A stretch of 64,000 bases of DNA from Candidatus Sulfotelmatobacter sp. (GTDB lineage: Bacteria > Vulcanimicrobiota > Vulcanimicrobiia > Vulcanimicrobiales > Vulcanimicrobiaceae): NCBI GenBank assembly GCA_035504415.1, contig DATJRY010000011.1, forward strand, positions 1 to 64,000, written 5' to 3'. How positions within the stretch are numbered: the stretch's first letter is position 1; every line of letters begins with the position of its first letter. This document shows positions 51,254 to 58,730 of this stretch, one piece after another. The notes beneath the pieces are model-generated. The model worked only from the letters and a program-made list of their open reading frames with translations. It made no database searches and was not told the DNA's origin. The translations under genes were made by a program, and so were the position numbers.

Positions 51254-52450
51254 CTAGGACGGCAACGCTCCCGGCCCGCTCTCCGCGGCAGGCAGCTCGG
51301 TCAGCTCGCGCCGCGTCGCCAGGTACTCCTTGGCCTTGCCGACCTCGTCGCCCAAGGCGTCGACCGTCTTTTCCATCGAGGAGAGCGCGCGAATGCGGTA
51401 GTCGCTCATCGAGTCGATCGTCGCCCGCACGTTGGCGAACGCCTCTTTGAGCTTCTCGACGTCGATGGTCGCGTTGGTCGCGCCCTCTTGAATGCGCCCG
51501 GCATTGGTCTTGAGCATCTGCGAGGTCGAGACGATCAGGTTCGAGGTCGTCGACTGGAGGGCGCTGATCTGGTCGAGCACGAGCTTCTGGTTGGCGACGG
51601 CTTGGGCGGTGATGACCGCGGTGCGCAGCGCCGCGACGGTCGTCGTCGTCGCGCGGTCGACGCCTTTGACCAGCTCGGCGTTGTTGCGCTTGATCAGGTC
51701 GAGCGCCATGTAGCCCTGGACGTTGACGGCCAGCTGCGTCGCGATGTCCTGCTGCTTCTGGCGCGCGGTGAACAGGATCTCTTCTTGCAGCGCGCGGGCG
51801 CGTTCGGGATCGCTCGCCTGCAGCGCCGCGACTTCCTGGTCGACCGCGTCGCCGATCGCGCGCGCCAGGTAGCCCGCCTTCTCCAGCTCGCCCATCAGCG
51901 ACCACATCGTCGCCTTCTCGGTCTCGATCGAGGCGTTGTCGCGCAGCAGCTCGTCCTTGCCGTGGCGCAGGCTCTCGATGATCGCGTTGAGGTGCGTCTG
52001 CGAGGACTCGTAGCCGCGGAAATAGTCGCGCAGCTTGTTGCCGAACGGGATGACGCCGAGCAGCTTCTTGGCGCCGAACAGGTCGCCGCGGGCCGAGGGG
52101 TCGAGCTTCTCGACGGTGCCGCGCAAGTCGAGCAGCGTCTTGGCGACCGGCGAGCCTTCCGCCAGCGTCGCCATCGCGCGGGTCGGCCGATCGATCAGCC
52201 GGTTCGAGACGTTGGCGGAGCGCGCGATGTCGGCGTTCGCCAGCGACTCGAGCGATTGCAGCTGCGCGCGATACGCGGCGCTGCGCGGATCGAGCCGCGC
52301 GACCTCGCGCGCGATCTCCTGCGCCTGCGCGTCGAGCGTGGCGCGCTCGTCGGTCGGCACCGGCACCTTGCCGATGGCGTCGGCCGGCGCGACCGCCGCG
52401 ACGGGCTCGGGCGCCGTGAGCATCGGGGGCTGCAACGCGTCGTCGGACAA
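51254..52450 (-). CDS. TelA-family (toxic anion resistance) protein
   Basis: 398 residues from TTG 52450, with GAGGAG seven bases upstream. Long helical coiled coil throughout: KLLGVIPFGNKLRDYFRGYE, then SQTHLNAIIESLRHGKDELL, ALQEEILFTARQKQQDIATQ and NAELVKGVDRATTTTVAALR, all typical of TelA/KlaA proteins linked to tellurite and other stress resistance. Biochemical role unknown. It ends a four-gene operon with two unknown genes and a tandem YbjQ-like protein, all on the minus strand. Confidence 0.88.
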   Translation of the reverse strand: MSDDALQPPMLTAPEPVAAVAPADAIGKVPVPTDERATLDAQAQEIAREVARLDPRSAAYRAQLQSLESLANADIARSANVSNRLIDRPTRAMATLAEGSPVAKTLLDLRGTVEKLDPSARGDLFGAKKLLGVIPFGNKLRDYFRGYESSQTHLNAIIESLRHGKDELLRDNASIETEKATMWSLMGELEKAGYLARAIGDAVDQEVAALQASDPERARALQEEILFTARQKQQDIATQLAVNVQGYMALDLIKRNNAELVKGVDRATTTTVAALRTAVITAQAVANQKLVLDQISALQSTTSNLIVSTSQMLKTNAGRIQEGATNATIDVEKLKEAFANVRATIDSMSDYRIRALSSMEKTVDALGDEVGKAKEYLATRRELTELPAAESGPGALPS

Positions 52451-52461
52451 GAACCGCTCCT

Positions 52462-52668
52462 CTACTGGTCGTTGACGTTCAGGATCTTGCGCTGCCCGCC
52501 CAAGACGCGGTCGTACGTGCTGGTCATGTCGTATCCTTCGCTGCCGCGTCCCTCGCCCTCGCCGCCCATGCCGAACATCCCGAGGACCCCCTCGACCGCG
52601 CCCTCGGCTCCGCGCTCCGCCAGCGCGTCGCCGATCAGCCCGCCGAACAAGTCCCCCAGCCACGACAT
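52462..52668 (-). CDS. small glycine-rich protein
   Basis: 68 residues, SWLGDLFGGLIGDALAERGA then a glycine-rich centre and the ending VLGGQRKILNVNDQ. It starts four bases after the YbjQ-like stop and ends 11 bases before the TelA start, so it is translated within that operon. Unrecognised; probably a small partner in the same stress system. Confidence 0.6.
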   Translation of the reverse strand: MSWLGDLFGGLIGDALAERGAEGAVEGVLGMFGMGGEGEGRGSEGYDMTSTYDRVLGGQRKILNVNDQ

Positions 52669-52672
52669 GGCG

Positions 52673-53524
52673 CTAGTCGTTCAACCCGACTTGGAAGGTC
52701 AGCGGGACGGTCTTGGGCTCGCCGCGCTTCTCGACCGAGGTGCCGATGGCCATGAACTCGATGACGTGCGGGCTCCAGATGTGCGTCTTCTCGACGATTT
52801 GCATGCCGATGATGCCGTCGGCACCGTGCGACTCCGCCTCGCCCTGCATCCGCCCCATCGCCAGCTCGCGCGCGTCGTAGATCGCCTCGGTGTAGTTCTG
52901 CAGCTCGATGTTGTTGCCCAGCGTGCGCATCGCTTGGGCGAAGCCCTGGTGCGCGATGTGGTAGACGCAGTTGCCCAGCACCAGCTCGCGCGGGACATAG
53001 CCCGTCGAGGTGACCAGCTTGTAGAAGTCCTGCACGCTGAAGTCCGAGGTGAAGGGCTTGTTGTCGCGCGTGCGCCACGGCTTCTCGGACGCCGGTCCTT
53101 TGACGGCGGTGCCGATGGCGGTGAACTCGAGCGCGTTCTCGGCCCAGGCATAGCCGCCGACCTCGAGCCGCACGCCGACGACGCCGTCGGCGCCGAGCAC
53201 GTCCGCCTCTTCTTCCATGCGCGTCATCGCCAACTCGCGCGCCTCGTACAGCGCGGCGGTCAGGTACTCGAGCTCCTGGTTCTGGTAGAAGTTCGCGTAC
53301 TGGATGCCGACGTGATAGATCGAGCTGCCCAGCACCAGACCCAGCGCGCTCCACCCCATCTGCTCGAGCAGCACGAACTCCGAGACGGACAGGTCGCTGG
53401 TGAACAGCGGCTGACCGCCCTCGCCGCGCATGCGCCGCAGGCGCGAGATCGCGTCGAGCGGGACGCCGCCCTGCGTGGTGCGCACGGTCGACTGCTGCTG
53501 CTGGTTGCGTCCGAAGAAACCCAT
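52673..53524 (-). CDS. tandem YbjQ-like (heavy-metal-binding domain) protein
   Basis: 283 residues with two related halves. Each has a SDLSVSEFVLLEQMGW-like front, then a YEARELAMTRMEEEADVLGA block and an ending like GVVGVRLEVGG...EFTAIGTAV (first) and GIIGMQIVEKT...EFMAIGTSV (second), the pattern of YbjQ/PF01906. YbjQ proteins form pentamers; function unsettled. Tandem fusion is unusual. It lies in the TelA operon. Confidence 0.8.
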   Translation of the reverse strand: MGFFGRNQQQQSTVRTTQGGVPLDAISRLRRMRGEGGQPLFTSDLSVSEFVLLEQMGWSALGLVLGSSIYHVGIQYANFYQNQELEYLTAALYEARELAMTRMEEEADVLGADGVVGVRLEVGGYAWAENALEFTAIGTAVKGPASEKPWRTRDNKPFTSDFSVQDFYKLVTSTGYVPRELVLGNCVYHIAHQGFAQAMRTLGNNIELQNYTEAIYDARELAMGRMQGEAESHGADGIIGMQIVEKTHIWSPHVIEFMAIGTSVEKRGEPKTVPLTFQVGLND

Positions 53525-53533
53525 CGTGTCTCC

Positions 53534-54307
53534 CTAAAAGAAGCGGGTGAGCGTTTCGCGCGCGCTGCGATCGCGCTCGGCGTAGTCGCTGAGATCTTGC
53601 ATCAGGCCCGCGATCCACTCGCCGACCTCGGCGGTGACGGTCTTGTTCTTGATGCCGCGCAAGAATCGGGTGACGGTCGCCTCGACGCCGCCGTAGGCGG
53701 TCCGGGCGAGCGCGTAGCGCAGCATGTCGTCGCGACGCGGGACGTCGAGCGCGACCGCGTCGACCGGACCGCGCCCGAGGAAGCCGCTCCGGTGGACGGA
53801 GACGATCGCCGGGAAGCGCCGCGCGACCTCGCCGGCGACGTTCTCGATGAGCGCGACCGGACTCGAGCCGGCGTCGGCCTGCAAGCGGTCGAACATCCGC
53901 CGGACCAGGATCGCCGGCGGCGCGGTGCCGGCGGCGACCGCCTCGACGGCCGACGCGTCCGGCAACGTCTCGAGCGCGCCGAAGCGCTCGGTGAGGAACG
54001 CGCCGTTGGCCGAGAGCTGTGTTTCCGCGCTCTCGCTGAGCGTCGCCAGCCGCTGCGCCGTCGCTCGCTCGAGCAGCCGCAGCTGGTCGACCAGCATCGC
54101 CTGCGCGGTCGCGTCGCGCCGCGCCGGCGGGATGTCCGTGTATGCCCGCAGGGTGTCGGGGAGATAGCGGCGCTCGGTCTCGCGCAGCGCGTAGGCCGCC
54201 TCGTCGGCGCCGCCCTGCGCCAGCAGCGGCTCGGCCTGGGCCAGCAGACCCTCGATCCGCGCCACCAAGGTCTCGGCCTCCGCCGGCAAGCCGTCCACGT
54301 CGCGCAT
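53534..54307 (-). CDS. unknown helical protein, first gene of the TelA operon
   Basis: 257 residues from ATG 54307, with GAAGGG ten bases upstream. The first half is helical (AETLVARIEGLLAQAEPLLA, LVDQLRLLERATAQRLATLS), with a mixed second half (VALIENVAGEVARRFPAIVS). It is similar in layout to the 'coiled-coil plus five-residue-motif' proteins often seen upstream of TelA genes, but no family can be named. Followed nine bases later by the YbjQ-like gene. Confidence 0.65.
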   Translation of the reverse strand: MRDVDGLPAEAETLVARIEGLLAQAEPLLAQGGADEAAYALRETERRYLPDTLRAYTDIPPARRDATAQAMLVDQLRLLERATAQRLATLSESAETQLSANGAFLTERFGALETLPDASAVEAVAAGTAPPAILVRRMFDRLQADAGSSPVALIENVAGEVARRFPAIVSVHRSGFLGRGPVDAVALDVPRRDDMLRYALARTAYGGVEATVTRFLRGIKNKTVTAEVGEWIAGLMQDLSDYAERDRSARETLTRFF

Positions 54308-54441
54308 TACCAGCGGCCCTTCCCGATGTTGCAGCCGAAGCCGCTTGCTCGGGCCGTCCCGGCCTGCTACCATTCCATCGCGCGGGCGGCCGACTGTCTC
54401 GGCGCGCTCGCCAGCACGCGTTCCGAGGGAGTTGACGCAGC

Positions 54442-54705
54442 ATGGGTCCCATTCCGCCGTACGGCCCCGCCATCACCCAAGCCGCCCAGAGCGGTGACCT
54501 CGCTCAAATGCAGGCGACCGCCAACGCGGCGCGCATCGCCATCGCCCGGTGCGGCGGTGAAACGCTGAACTTCGGCGGCGCTCAGGGTACGGGCAGCGTC
54601 GAGTTCGTTGCATGCACCCCCGATCAGGTCGCCGACGTCGCGGCCGCCCTCAAGACGCTCGAAGACGCGATCGCCAAGGCCGAAGCCGCGCAGCAGAGCT
54701 CGTGA
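54442..54705 (+). CDS. DUF1843 'GDL motif' peptide, probable substrate of the radical SAM enzyme
   Basis: 87 residues: GPIPPYGPAITQAAQSGDLA QMQA at the front is the DUF1843 signature with its GDL motif (18-20), and the end AAALKTLEDAIAKAEAAQQ is the helical tail. Two cysteines (37, 58) lie in a central glycine/threonine stretch, LNFGGAQGTGSVEFVACT. GAGGGAG precedes the ATG. The stop overlaps the start of a radical SAM/SPASM gene. Short peptides with this motif are associated with such maturases, so this is probably a modified peptide precursor; the modification is unknown. Confidence 0.7.
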   Translation: MGPIPPYGPAITQAAQSGDLAQMQATANAARIAIARCGGETLNFGGAQGTGSVEFVACTPDQVADVAAALKTLEDAIAKAEAAQQSS

Positions 54706-56111
54706 GCGCGGGCGCGCTGCGGCCGAACCGGTTCCTGACCGAGCTCGACCGTACCGCGCACCATCCCGTCCACGTCGTCTGGGAGATCACGCTGGCCTGC
54801 GACCTCAAGTGCGGCCACTGCGGCTCCCGCGCCGGCGCGCGCCGCCCCGACGAGCTCTCCACCCAGGAGTGCCTCGAGGTCGTCGACGCGCTGGCGGCGC
54901 TGGGGACGCGCGAGGTGACGCTGATCGGCGGCGAGGCGTACCTGCGGCGCGACTTCGCCGCGATCATCGCCGCCGTCACCGCGGCCGGGATGCAGTGCAC
55001 GCTGCAGAGCGGCGGGCGTAACCTGACCGACGAGCGCATCGCCGATGCGGTCGCGGCCGGATTGACCTCGGCCGGCATCTCGCTCGACGGGCTGCGACCG
55101 CTGCACGACCAGCTGCGCGGTGTCCCCGGCTCGTTCGACGCCGCGGTCGGGGCGTTACGGCGGCTGAGCGCGAGCGGCGTGCGCACCAGCGTCAACACGC
55201 AGATCTCCGCGCCGGTGCTCGACCAGCTCGAGGCGCTGCTCGAGGTGATCGTCGCGAGCGGCGCGACGCACTGGCAACTGCAGCTCACCGTCCCGATGGG
55301 GCGCGCCAGCGACCACCCGCAGCTGATCCTGCAGCCCTATCAGATGCTGGCGGTCATGCCGCAGATCGCCGCGCTGTTCCGGCGCGCACGCGAGCGCGGC
55401 GTGCTGGTGCAGATCGGCAACAACATCGGCTACTTCGGTCCGCACGAAGGGATGCTGCGCGGCTACGGCGTCGAGACCGAGCACTACGGCGGGTGCCTGG
55501 CCGGCGACAACACGATGGGGATCGAGGCCGACGGCGCGATCAAGGGCTGTCCTTCGCTGCCGACGGCGTCGTACGTCGGCGGCAACGTGCGCGAGCTGGA
55601 CCTCACGGCGATCTGGTGGGAGACCCCGGAGCTCTCGTTCGCGCGCGAACGGCGGGTCGAGCAGCGGGGCTTCTGCCGCAGCTGCTACTACACCGACGTC
55701 TGCCGCGGCGGCTGCACGTGGATGGCGCACAGCCTGTTCGAGCAGCCCGGTGACAACCCGTTCTGTCACCATCGTGCGCTCGAGCTCGACCGGCAAGGGT
55801 TGCGCGAGCGCATCGAGCAGACGCGGTCCGCACCCGGCACCTCGTTCGACCACGGCGCGTTCGCGCTCGTGCTCGAGACCAGCGCGGGGCAACCGTGTGA
55901 CGCCGACGCCGTCGACCGCACGCCGCGCGATCCGGCCGCCGAGCGGGACACGCTGATCGTCTGCTACGGGTGCCGCCGCCACGTCTTCGCCGGCACGACG
56001 ACCTGTCCGTTCTGCGCCGGCGACGTCGCCGCGGCCGCGCGGCAGCACGAGGACGACCTCGACGCGGCGCGCCGCGCGGCAGCCGCGCTGCGTGCCGTCC
56101 TCCAAAGCTGA
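54702..56111 (+). CDS. radical SAM/SPASM maturase, peptide-associated
   Basis: 469 residues from GTG 54702, sharing bases with the peptide stop. The radical SAM cluster is Cys33-x3-Cys37-x2-Cys40 (ACDLKCGHC), then GGEAYLRRDF. The SPASM region carries a further cysteine set (GGCLAGDNTM, IKGCPSLP, GFCRSCYYTDVCRGGC, NPFCHHRAL) for auxiliary iron-sulphur clusters. The C-terminus adds a small zinc-ribbon-like segment (CYGCRR...TTCPFC). It should modify a peptide by a radical step; the coupled DUF1843 peptide is the obvious candidate. Confidence 0.85.
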   Translation: MSAGALRPNRFLTELDRTAHHPVHVVWEITLACDLKCGHCGSRAGARRPDELSTQECLEVVDALAALGTREVTLIGGEAYLRRDFAAIIAAVTAAGMQCTLQSGGRNLTDERIADAVAAGLTSAGISLDGLRPLHDQLRGVPGSFDAAVGALRRLSASGVRTSVNTQISAPVLDQLEALLEVIVASGATHWQLQLTVPMGRASDHPQLILQPYQMLAVMPQIAALFRRARERGVLVQIGNNIGYFGPHEGMLRGYGVETEHYGGCLAGDNTMGIEADGAIKGCPSLPTASYVGGNVRELDLTAIWWETPELSFARERRVEQRGFCRSCYYTDVCRGGCTWMAHSLFEQPGDNPFCHHRALELDRQGLRERIEQTRSAPGTSFDHGAFALVLETSAGQPCDADAVDRTPRDPAAERDTLIVCYGCRRHVFAGTTTCPFCAGDVAAAARQHEDDLDAARRAAAALRAVLQS

Positions 56112-56660: not shown

Positions 56661-58730
56661 TCATACCGGCGCGAGCGCGCGCGGCCCGGTCGTGGGTACG
56701 GCGGACGCGTCGAGCACGCCGGCCGGCGTCAAGCGCACGTCGGTCGGCAACTCGGCGAACGCGTAGACGGCGACGCCTGGCGCGGTTCGCGCGAGAAACT
56801 CGGCCAACAGCGGACGTAGCGGCGCGGTGACGACGATCGCGTGCGGCGCGGCGGCCGGATCGGCCAGGTAGGCGGCGACGCGCTCGCGCACGTGCAGGGC
56901 GGTCGCGGGATCGGGCGCGAGCCCACCGTCGGGCGACCACATCTTGGCCAGCTCCGCCTCGAAGGCGGGGGCCAGGATCAACGGCCGGATGGCACGCACG
57001 CCGTCGCGGCGCAACTGCTGCGGGATCACGACCCGGCGCGCGGCCTCGGCCAGCTCGCGCGGATCGCGCGCGGCCGGCGCGGCGTCGACGAACGCTTCGA
57101 ACACGCCGATCGGATCGCGGGGCCACGCGCGCTCGCGCAGCAGGTGGCAAAAGGCGCGGTGCGCGAGGCCGACCGGGAGCAGGTCGGTGCCGACGTCCTT
57201 CACCAGCGTCGGCACCGCAGCGCGCAGGTACTCGAGCAGCGTCTGGAACTCTTGGCGGCCGACGAGCTCGGCGGCGTAGGCGCGCGCCAGCTCCGCCAGG
57301 TGCGAGCCGATGATCGAGATCGCGTCGAACGCGAGCGCACCCGCCGCTTCCGCCTGCGCGCGCGCGGGCGGCGCGATCCACCGAGCCGACAATCCGTACA
57401 CCGGCTCGGTGGTCGGCTCACCGGCGATCCGGGCCAGCGCTTCGGGCGCGCCGACCGCGATGAGCCGATCGAGGCGAACCGTCCCTTCGCCCGCGACCCG
57501 GTCGCGCACGCGAATCGCATAGGTGTGCGGATCGCGCAGCGGATCGTCGCGCAGCCGCACGCCGGGGATGACGATGCCGATCTCCGCCGCCAGCGCGCGG
57601 CGCACGTCGCCGACCCGGTCGAGCAGCGCCTCGGCGTTGGGAGCGGCGAGCAGCGGGTAGAGCTCGGCGCCGACTTCGATCGCCAGCGCGTCGACGCCGA
57701 CCAGCCCGAAAGCCGTCTCCGGCCGCCGGACCGCTTCGCGGCGCGCGCGCTCGCGCGCCGCGGCCTCCTCGCCGGCGGCGCGCCGTTTCGCCCGCTCGGC
57801 CAGCGACGCGCCGCCCAGCGCGACCAGCCCCAGCGTCGCGAACAGCGCGGCCGGAAAGGCCGGCACGAAGGCCAGCGCCAGCACGAGCAGCGCCGCGACG
57901 CGCAGCACGTCGGGGCGCGCGAGCAGCTGCGCGGCGAGATCGACGCCGAGCGCGCCTTCGCCCGCGACGCGCGTCACCAGCAGCCCCATCGCGGTCGAGA
58001 TCAAGAAGGCCGGCAAGGTGGTGAGCAGCGCGTTGCCGATCGAGAGGATCGCGAAGGTCTGGATCGCGTCGAGCGGCGCCATCCCGTGGTAGACGGCCCC
58101 GACCAGCACGCCGCCGAGCAGGTTGAGCACGACGATGACCAGCGCCGCGATCGCATCGCCCTTGACGAACTTCCCCGCGCCGTCCATCGCCGCGTAGAAA
58201 TCGGCCTCGCGCTGGACGCGGGCGCGTTTGCGGCGCGCGCCCTCGGCGTCGAGCACGCCCGCGTGCAGGTCGGCGTCGATCGCCATCTGCTTGCCCGGCA
58301 TCGCGTCGAGCGTGAAGCGCGCGCAGACTTCGGCGACGCGCTGCGCGCCGCTCGCGATGACGACGAACTGGATGGTGACCAGGATCGCGAACACGATCAG
58401 CCCGACGACGACGTTGCCGCTCACCACGAACGCGCCGAACGCGGGGATCAGCGCGCCGACGCCGTTGGGCTCGTGCCCGTGGGTGAGGATCAGCCGGGTC
58501 GCGCTGACGTCGAGCGCCAGCCGGAAGAGCGTGGCCAGCAACAGCGAGGGCGCGAAGGCCGAGAACTCGAGCGGCTCCTCGACCCGCAGGCCGAGCAGCA
58601 GCACCAGCGCCGAGCCGAACACGTTGAGCGCCAACAGCACGTCGAGCAGCGGCGGCGGAAGCGGCACGACCAGGATCGCGACGACGCACAGCACCGCCAG
58701 CGCGAAGGCGGTCGTCAACCGCGCGCTCAC
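56661..58730 (-). CDS. flhA: flagellar / type III export gate protein FlhA
   Basis: 689 residues from GTG 58730. Eight membrane helices lie in the first half, with VVSGNVVVGLIVFAILVTIQ and DAMPGKQMAIDADLHAGVLD, the strongly conserved FlhA/SctV (FHIPEP) loop. The C-terminal cytoplasmic domain runs from about 340 on. It forms the export nonamer. It could be flagellar or the injectisome version; FliM- and FliN-like genes nearby favour flagellar. GTG overlaps the flhB stop. Confidence 0.93.
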   Translation of the reverse strand: MSARLTTAFALAVLCVVAILVVPLPPPLLDVLLALNVFGSALVLLLGLRVEEPLEFSAFAPSLLLATLFRLALDVSATRLILTHGHEPNGVGALIPAFGAFVVSGNVVVGLIVFAILVTIQFVVIASGAQRVAEVCARFTLDAMPGKQMAIDADLHAGVLDAEGARRKRARVQREADFYAAMDGAGKFVKGDAIAALVIVVLNLLGGVLVGAVYHGMAPLDAIQTFAILSIGNALLTTLPAFLISTAMGLLVTRVAGEGALGVDLAAQLLARPDVLRVAALLVLALAFVPAFPAALFATLGLVALGGASLAERAKRRAAGEEAAARERARREAVRRPETAFGLVGVDALAIEVGAELYPLLAAPNAEALLDRVGDVRRALAAEIGIVIPGVRLRDDPLRDPHTYAIRVRDRVAGEGTVRLDRLIAVGAPEALARIAGEPTTEPVYGLSARWIAPPARAQAEAAGALAFDAISIIGSHLAELARAYAAELVGRQEFQTLLEYLRAAVPTLVKDVGTDLLPVGLAHRAFCHLLRERAWPRDPIGVFEAFVDAAPAARDPRELAEAARRVVIPQQLRRDGVRAIRPLILAPAFEAELAKMWSPDGGLAPDPATALHVRERVAAYLADPAAAPHAIVVTAPLRPLLAEFLARTAPGVAVYAFAELPTDVRLTPAGVLDASAVPTTGPRALAPV

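Follow-up and report, generated by a model that had tools for sequence, protein, structure and literature searches.

We propose that two adjoining genes in the window, the whole stretch of 64,000 nucleotides analysed here, form a unit in which a radical SAM/SPASM enzyme excises tyramine at Pro6-Tyr7-Gly8 of a DUF1843 peptide and the ends of the chain are rejoined, a reading to which we assign a probability of about 0.72. Homology and motif point to tyramine excision as the best reading of this predicted site. The x-Tyr-Gly motif is the known target of tyramine-excising spliceases, and the hallmark of the PlpX type of splicease is the loss of tyramine (about 135 Da, C8H9NO) from its substrate.

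The first gene (54442..54705, + strand; ATG 54442 to TGA 54705) encodes an 87-residue protein, the proposed substrate, whose translation begins MGPIPPYGPAITQAAQSGDLAQM and in which an N-terminal core is followed by a helical follower. A Shine-Dalgarno-like GAGGGAG (54425..54431, +), read directly from the sequence, lies 10 nt 5' of the ATG. The initial annotation had named the peptide as DUF1843, and it matches PF08898 at 38.5 bits against a gathering cut-off of 23.3 (E 1.8e-9), the match being limited to residues 5-35, which correspond to positions 1-31 of the 52 in the profile. Tyr7 starts a Y-x10-GDL motif, in which ten residues separate it from Gly18-Asp19-Leu20, and the codons for Pro6-Tyr7-Gly8 occupy 54457..54465 (+). 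The peptide stop overlaps the start of the second gene, as had been noticed, with the four bases GTGA common to both.

The second gene (54702..56111, +; GTG 54702 to TGA 56111) encodes a 469-residue maturase that matches the Radical_SAM and SPASM families, confirming the enzyme class originally given to it. The CxxxCxxC motif CDLKCGHC (54798..54821, +) provides, with C33, C37 and C40, the ligands of the SAM-binding 4Fe-4S cluster and is invariant in 46 aligned relatives, the SPASM domain (PF13186) spans residues 265-329 (55494..55688, +), and a C-terminal zinc-ribbon-like segment, CYGCRRHVFAGTTTCPFC, covers residues 421-438 (55962..56015, +). The best NCBIfam match is TIGR03913, 'GDL motif peptide-associated maturase', with 580.1 bits over positions 3-468 of 477. 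This is 12 bits below the curated cut-off of 591.75, and we therefore call the enzyme TIGR03913-type; the enzymes of Streptomyces (577) and Aureibacter (535) also fall under the cut-off, while that of Azospirillum (760.6) lies above it. The second family is TIGR04103, nif11 maturase 3, at 423.8 bits against a cut-off of 725, and all further families score below 180 bits. In the tree, the window enzyme belongs to a clade of ten DUF1843-linked enzymes that includes the annotated TIGR03913 members from Azospirillum (support 95/87) and stands apart from TIGR04103. Relatives that are not linked to DUF1843 share with the window enzyme 42-53% identity and every one of the radical SAM and SPASM cysteines. 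The AlphaFold2 model has a mean pLDDT of 90.4 and a pTM of 0.88; both the ribbon and the final helix (442-468) exceed a pLDDT of 90. The nearest solved folds among the matches listed are the RiPP maturases SkfB and SuiB; no splicease structure is among those matches.

That peptide and enzyme form a modified-peptide system had been suggested from the window, and the pairing proved to be recorded knowledge, since the peptide carries the very motif that gives TIGR03913 its name. The DUF1843-maturase pairing is thus already known as a family; the chemistry is not part of that name. In 10 of 10 loci of the clade, the gene immediately before that of the enzyme encodes DUF1843. This holds for G008, G024, Streptomyces lateritius and G007, where the gene is in two tandem copies, and for three Azospirillum plasmids and Aureibacter, each with two or three copies; the Pseudomonadota were sampled through plasmids only. 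An overlap of four bases is also seen in G008 and G024. Among 30 genomes, all from one family in one phylum, DUF1843 exceeds its cut-off in exactly the four that encode the enzyme and in none of the other 26. A rare association of DUF1843 with this enzyme clade, which had been named as grounds for abandoning the idea, is therefore not what is seen.

No exporter or protease gene adjoins the pair, as had been observed. On the upstream side is a conserved divergent block (51254-54373, -) that comprises TelA, a YbjQ-type two-repeat protein and an unassigned 279-aa gene; this last gene matches nothing in Pfam, but most genomes of the genus retain it. The downstream neighbours are a STAS protein and FlhA/FlhB. 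Within the FlhA coding region, ARAGORN reports a 92-nt tRNA-Arg (CCG) at 57358-57449 (-), probably a false positive. Within the genus, the flanks (TelA, the YbjQ-type protein and the 279-aa gene; FlhA and FlhB) show synteny both in G007 and G008, which have the pair, and in G005 and G002, which do not; this indicates a cassette that was acquired or deleted whole and at a single position. Its recurrence as a unit in other genomes argues that the pairing is more than chance.

We aligned 17 DUF1843 peptides. Tyr7, Asp19 and Met23 are each present in 17 of 17, and Gly8 in 12, replaced by Met in three and Ala in two, with at least one YG copy at every locus aligned. The x-Tyr-Gly expected of a PlpX-type substrate is thus found in the window as Pro6-Tyr7-Gly8. 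The window's GPIPPYGPAI resembles the tested PlpXY tag GPIRPLYGLPI (PMC10533398). In the DUF1842-DUF1843 fusion protein PDB 8t0b, a weak alignment puts MYGVAI at the position equivalent to that of Tyr7. A Nostoc TIGR04103 enzyme (853 bits) follows a Nif11 peptide that ends in ALYGLPPELF and precedes a 71-aa ORF, the gene layout described for the PlpX splicease and plp (PMC11002830). That TIGR03913 and TIGR04103 score far above all other families also counts for the splicease reading. Spliceotides are protease inhibitors, and the reaction has been described as widespread (PMC10373908, PMC11117315).

Enzymes of this group also occur in 88 of 284 genomes of the G150 phylum (probably Myxococcota), where they are flanked by precursors with one to five C-terminal xYG motifs, mostly xYG[AGLV]P and often xYG[AGLV]PP. 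Several points count against the splicease reading. Five of the 17 peptides have YM or YA rather than YG, the +2/+3 context of the window peptide differs from the xYGxPP of other systems, X is Pro, and no PlpY-like ORF lies beside the pair in the window. The literature consulted yielded no biochemistry on the TIGR03913/DUF1843 family, and the separation of its clade from TIGR04103 means that the reaction could have changed. For this group Pro at X is nothing unusual, however, because PPYG is found among natural xYG cores (L056, L069, L073). When the downstream Nostoc partner was used as a single-sequence phmmer query, weak matches were found in the G137 and G138 loci only. In these two Eremiobacterota loci (L016, L017) a putative xYG precursor begins PLLPRKSWKDP and weakly resembles the PlpY-like ORF of Nostoc at its N-terminus (E 0.002-0.005); this N-terminus is perhaps a second docking module fused to a substrate.

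The invariant Tyr7 would also suit another modification, such as a crosslink, an oxidation or a decarboxylation of the mycofactocin or PQQ kind in which the peptide is spent on a small molecule. The mycofactocin and PqqE profiles do match the enzyme, but far lower, at 134 and 85 bits, and the closest characterised type excises tyramine at x-Tyr-Gly. Further genes of a cofactor pathway are absent nearby, and the helical part of the peptide is as conserved as the Tyr, a better fit to a protein product than to a consumed precursor. We consider a different fate for Tyr7 unlikely.

At longer odds still, DUF1843 could bind the enzyme as a partner or scaffold instead of serving as its substrate. DUF1843 paralogues are repeated in operons and have been picked as possible assembly proteins (PMC10994174), and the copies with YM or YA would be consistent with such a role. 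Against it, the DUF1842-DUF1843 protein is monomeric (PMC10994174), and the invariant Tyr sits beside Gly in a flexible N-terminal stretch, outside the helices; the same Tyr-Gly feature appears in substrates of related enzymes.

A sacti- or ranthipeptide-like thioether within residues 37-58, which the initial annotation offered as a candidate for the modified part, is barely credible: the peptide does have two cysteines (C37 and C58) and the enzyme fold is most like SkfB and SuiB among the matches listed, but Cys37 occurs in one and Cys58 in two of the 17 peptides, residues 37-61 lie within a variable insertion missing from short homologues, and the peptides of G008 and most of those of Azospirillum and Aureibacter have no Cys at all. 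The modified residue should thus be Tyr7 and not a cysteine, and we rejected the Cys core on this alignment. Thioether-type chemistry likewise lacks support, as relatives of the enzyme adjoin substrates with repeated x-Tyr-Gly.

Under tyramine excision, the DUF1843 protein would be made first, and the overlapping GTG would couple translation of the enzyme to it. The enzyme may then bind the peptide through its conserved helix, at about residues 11-36, with its own C-terminal ribbon acting as a built-in docking or folding module. The modified protein would probably be kept whole in the cell, since no protease or exporter is nearby, and might conceivably act as an electrophilic protease inhibitor or a binding protein.

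Comparison with known systems indicates what is particular to the window. As in TIGR03913 systems, a Y-x10-GDL peptide is directly upstream, the profile is matched at full length including the C-terminal ribbon, and the enzyme groups with annotated Azospirillum members. It differs from them in its score under the cut-off (shared with Streptomyces and Aureibacter), in having one peptide and not two or three, in the lack of DUF1842, for which no gene was found in the window's genome, and in the variable insertion between the two helices of the peptide. The radical SAM/SPASM core is about 43-45% identical to that of the Nostoc TIGR04103 member (PlpX itself being compared by description), and a small x-Tyr-Gly substrate again lies beside the enzyme. 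Unlike PlpX/PlpY, the window pair has neither a Nif11 or NHLP leader nor a PlpY-like gene, its enzyme falls in a separate clade, and its site is near the N-terminus with the putative recognition helix behind it. The Myxococcota-type systems share a homologous enzyme (43-53% identical) and the ribbon, but there the substrate begins with the ribbon and continues with a lipoprotein-like signal and the one to five xYG cores, whereas in the window it is fused to the enzyme.

The ribbon had been noted as an extra of this enzyme. It is indeed present, but it is no private addition, as it lies within the TIGR03913 profile and in all ten DUF1843-linked enzymes. We built a profile from the C-terminal ribbons of these ten enzymes and ran it on 2,976 ORFs (all loci and the window). 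It picks out the ribbons at the N-termini of Myxococcota-type XYG precursors, at E values from 7e-11 to about 1e-2, with no unrelated proteins in between, and the reverse profile of precursor ribbons finds the window enzyme at E 6.6e-7. Searched with a 20-row alignment of precursor ribbons, the window's whole genome has a single significant match, the maturase ribbon (55950-56024, E 1.5e-7; next 0.08). The same query matches only the maturases in G007, G008 and G024, and nothing under E 0.04 in G005, which is without the pair. Since the maturase ribbon is the sole significant match in each of these genomes with the pair, enzyme and precursor ribbons belong to the same ribbon subfamily rather than being any two zinc ribbons. 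Among 14 ribbon proteins inspected in two Myxococcota-type genomes, 13 carry xYG and the fourteenth is cut by the locus end. We did not find a link between enzyme and substrate ribbons in the literature checked, and as far as that goes it would be new.

Across 48 enzyme loci the ribbon is located in the enzyme in 12, in a neighbouring precursor in 27, in neither in nine and in both in none (Fisher p 4e-6). About two changes suffice on the tree, one for the clade with C-terminal ribbons (support 91/77) and one for Tropicibacter, whose ribbon is N-terminal; the mutual exclusion is therefore to be read as a pattern and not a statistic. These homologies suggest that the ribbon probably serves for docking and has passed from one partner, substrate or enzyme, to the other. 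In L047, L051, L056 and L062 a ribbon precursor lies in frame 3' of the enzyme with one or two stops between them, an arrangement from which the ribbon could be joined to the enzyme by a simple step. In a predicted read-through chain of enzyme and precursor from L056, with the stop codon read as Gln, the enzyme is well folded, but the core residues have a pLDDT below 32 and are left unplaced, so that this model does not bear on docking. Azospirillum rows, among them the chain in which peptide and enzyme are in frame, were left out of the folding. Separate precursors aligned to the fused chain came out misplaced, and these rows were dropped. Many ribbon precursors have, after the ribbon, a hydrophobic stretch ending in a lipobox-like Cys, which would make the ribbon a leader that stays in the cytoplasm and is cut off on export. 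We tentatively extend this to a ribbon portable across the splicease superfamily, a cleavable leader on the lipoprotein-like substrates of the Myxococcota type and fused to the enzyme in TIGR03913/DUF1843, possibly by loss of the stop codon before an in-frame precursor gene, with ribbon-free substrates recognised differently; we hold this model at slightly less than even odds.

Other ribbon arrangements were seen among the loci. Ribbon-led xYG proteins (L047, L050-L052, L055-L057, L062, L069, L073, L074 and others) have an N-terminal CxxCxRHVR..CPFC and one to five C-terminal xYG motifs. G562 and G655 each encode at least 10 of them, and the ones compared with Pfam and NCBIfam all stayed below the family cut-offs. 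L045 (G679:C408) pairs a C-terminal-ribbon maturase with non-DUF1843 substrates, three tandem proteins that each have a signal-like N-terminus, one YG site and a helical tail. The Tropicibacter enzyme with its N-terminal ribbon (L028) is encoded on a plasmid, where its cluster also contains two other radical SAM genes and genes for a trypsin-like and an M23 peptidase.

In Burkholderia thailandensis, DUF1842/DUF1843 genes rank with the most strongly induced of stationary phase (PMC12322963), and in Chromobacterium subtsugae they are under quorum control (PMC12114271); the DUF1843 product may therefore matter physiologically. TIGR03913/DUF1843 is named by its motif only; should it prove to be a branch of the spliceases, this widespread and uncharacterised gene pair would gain a defined reaction, one predicted residue and an expected mass shift. 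Through the common ribbon, substrate recognition by these enzymes would become open to testing, and ribbon-led XYG proteins, for which Pfam and NCBIfam have no model, could be searched for.
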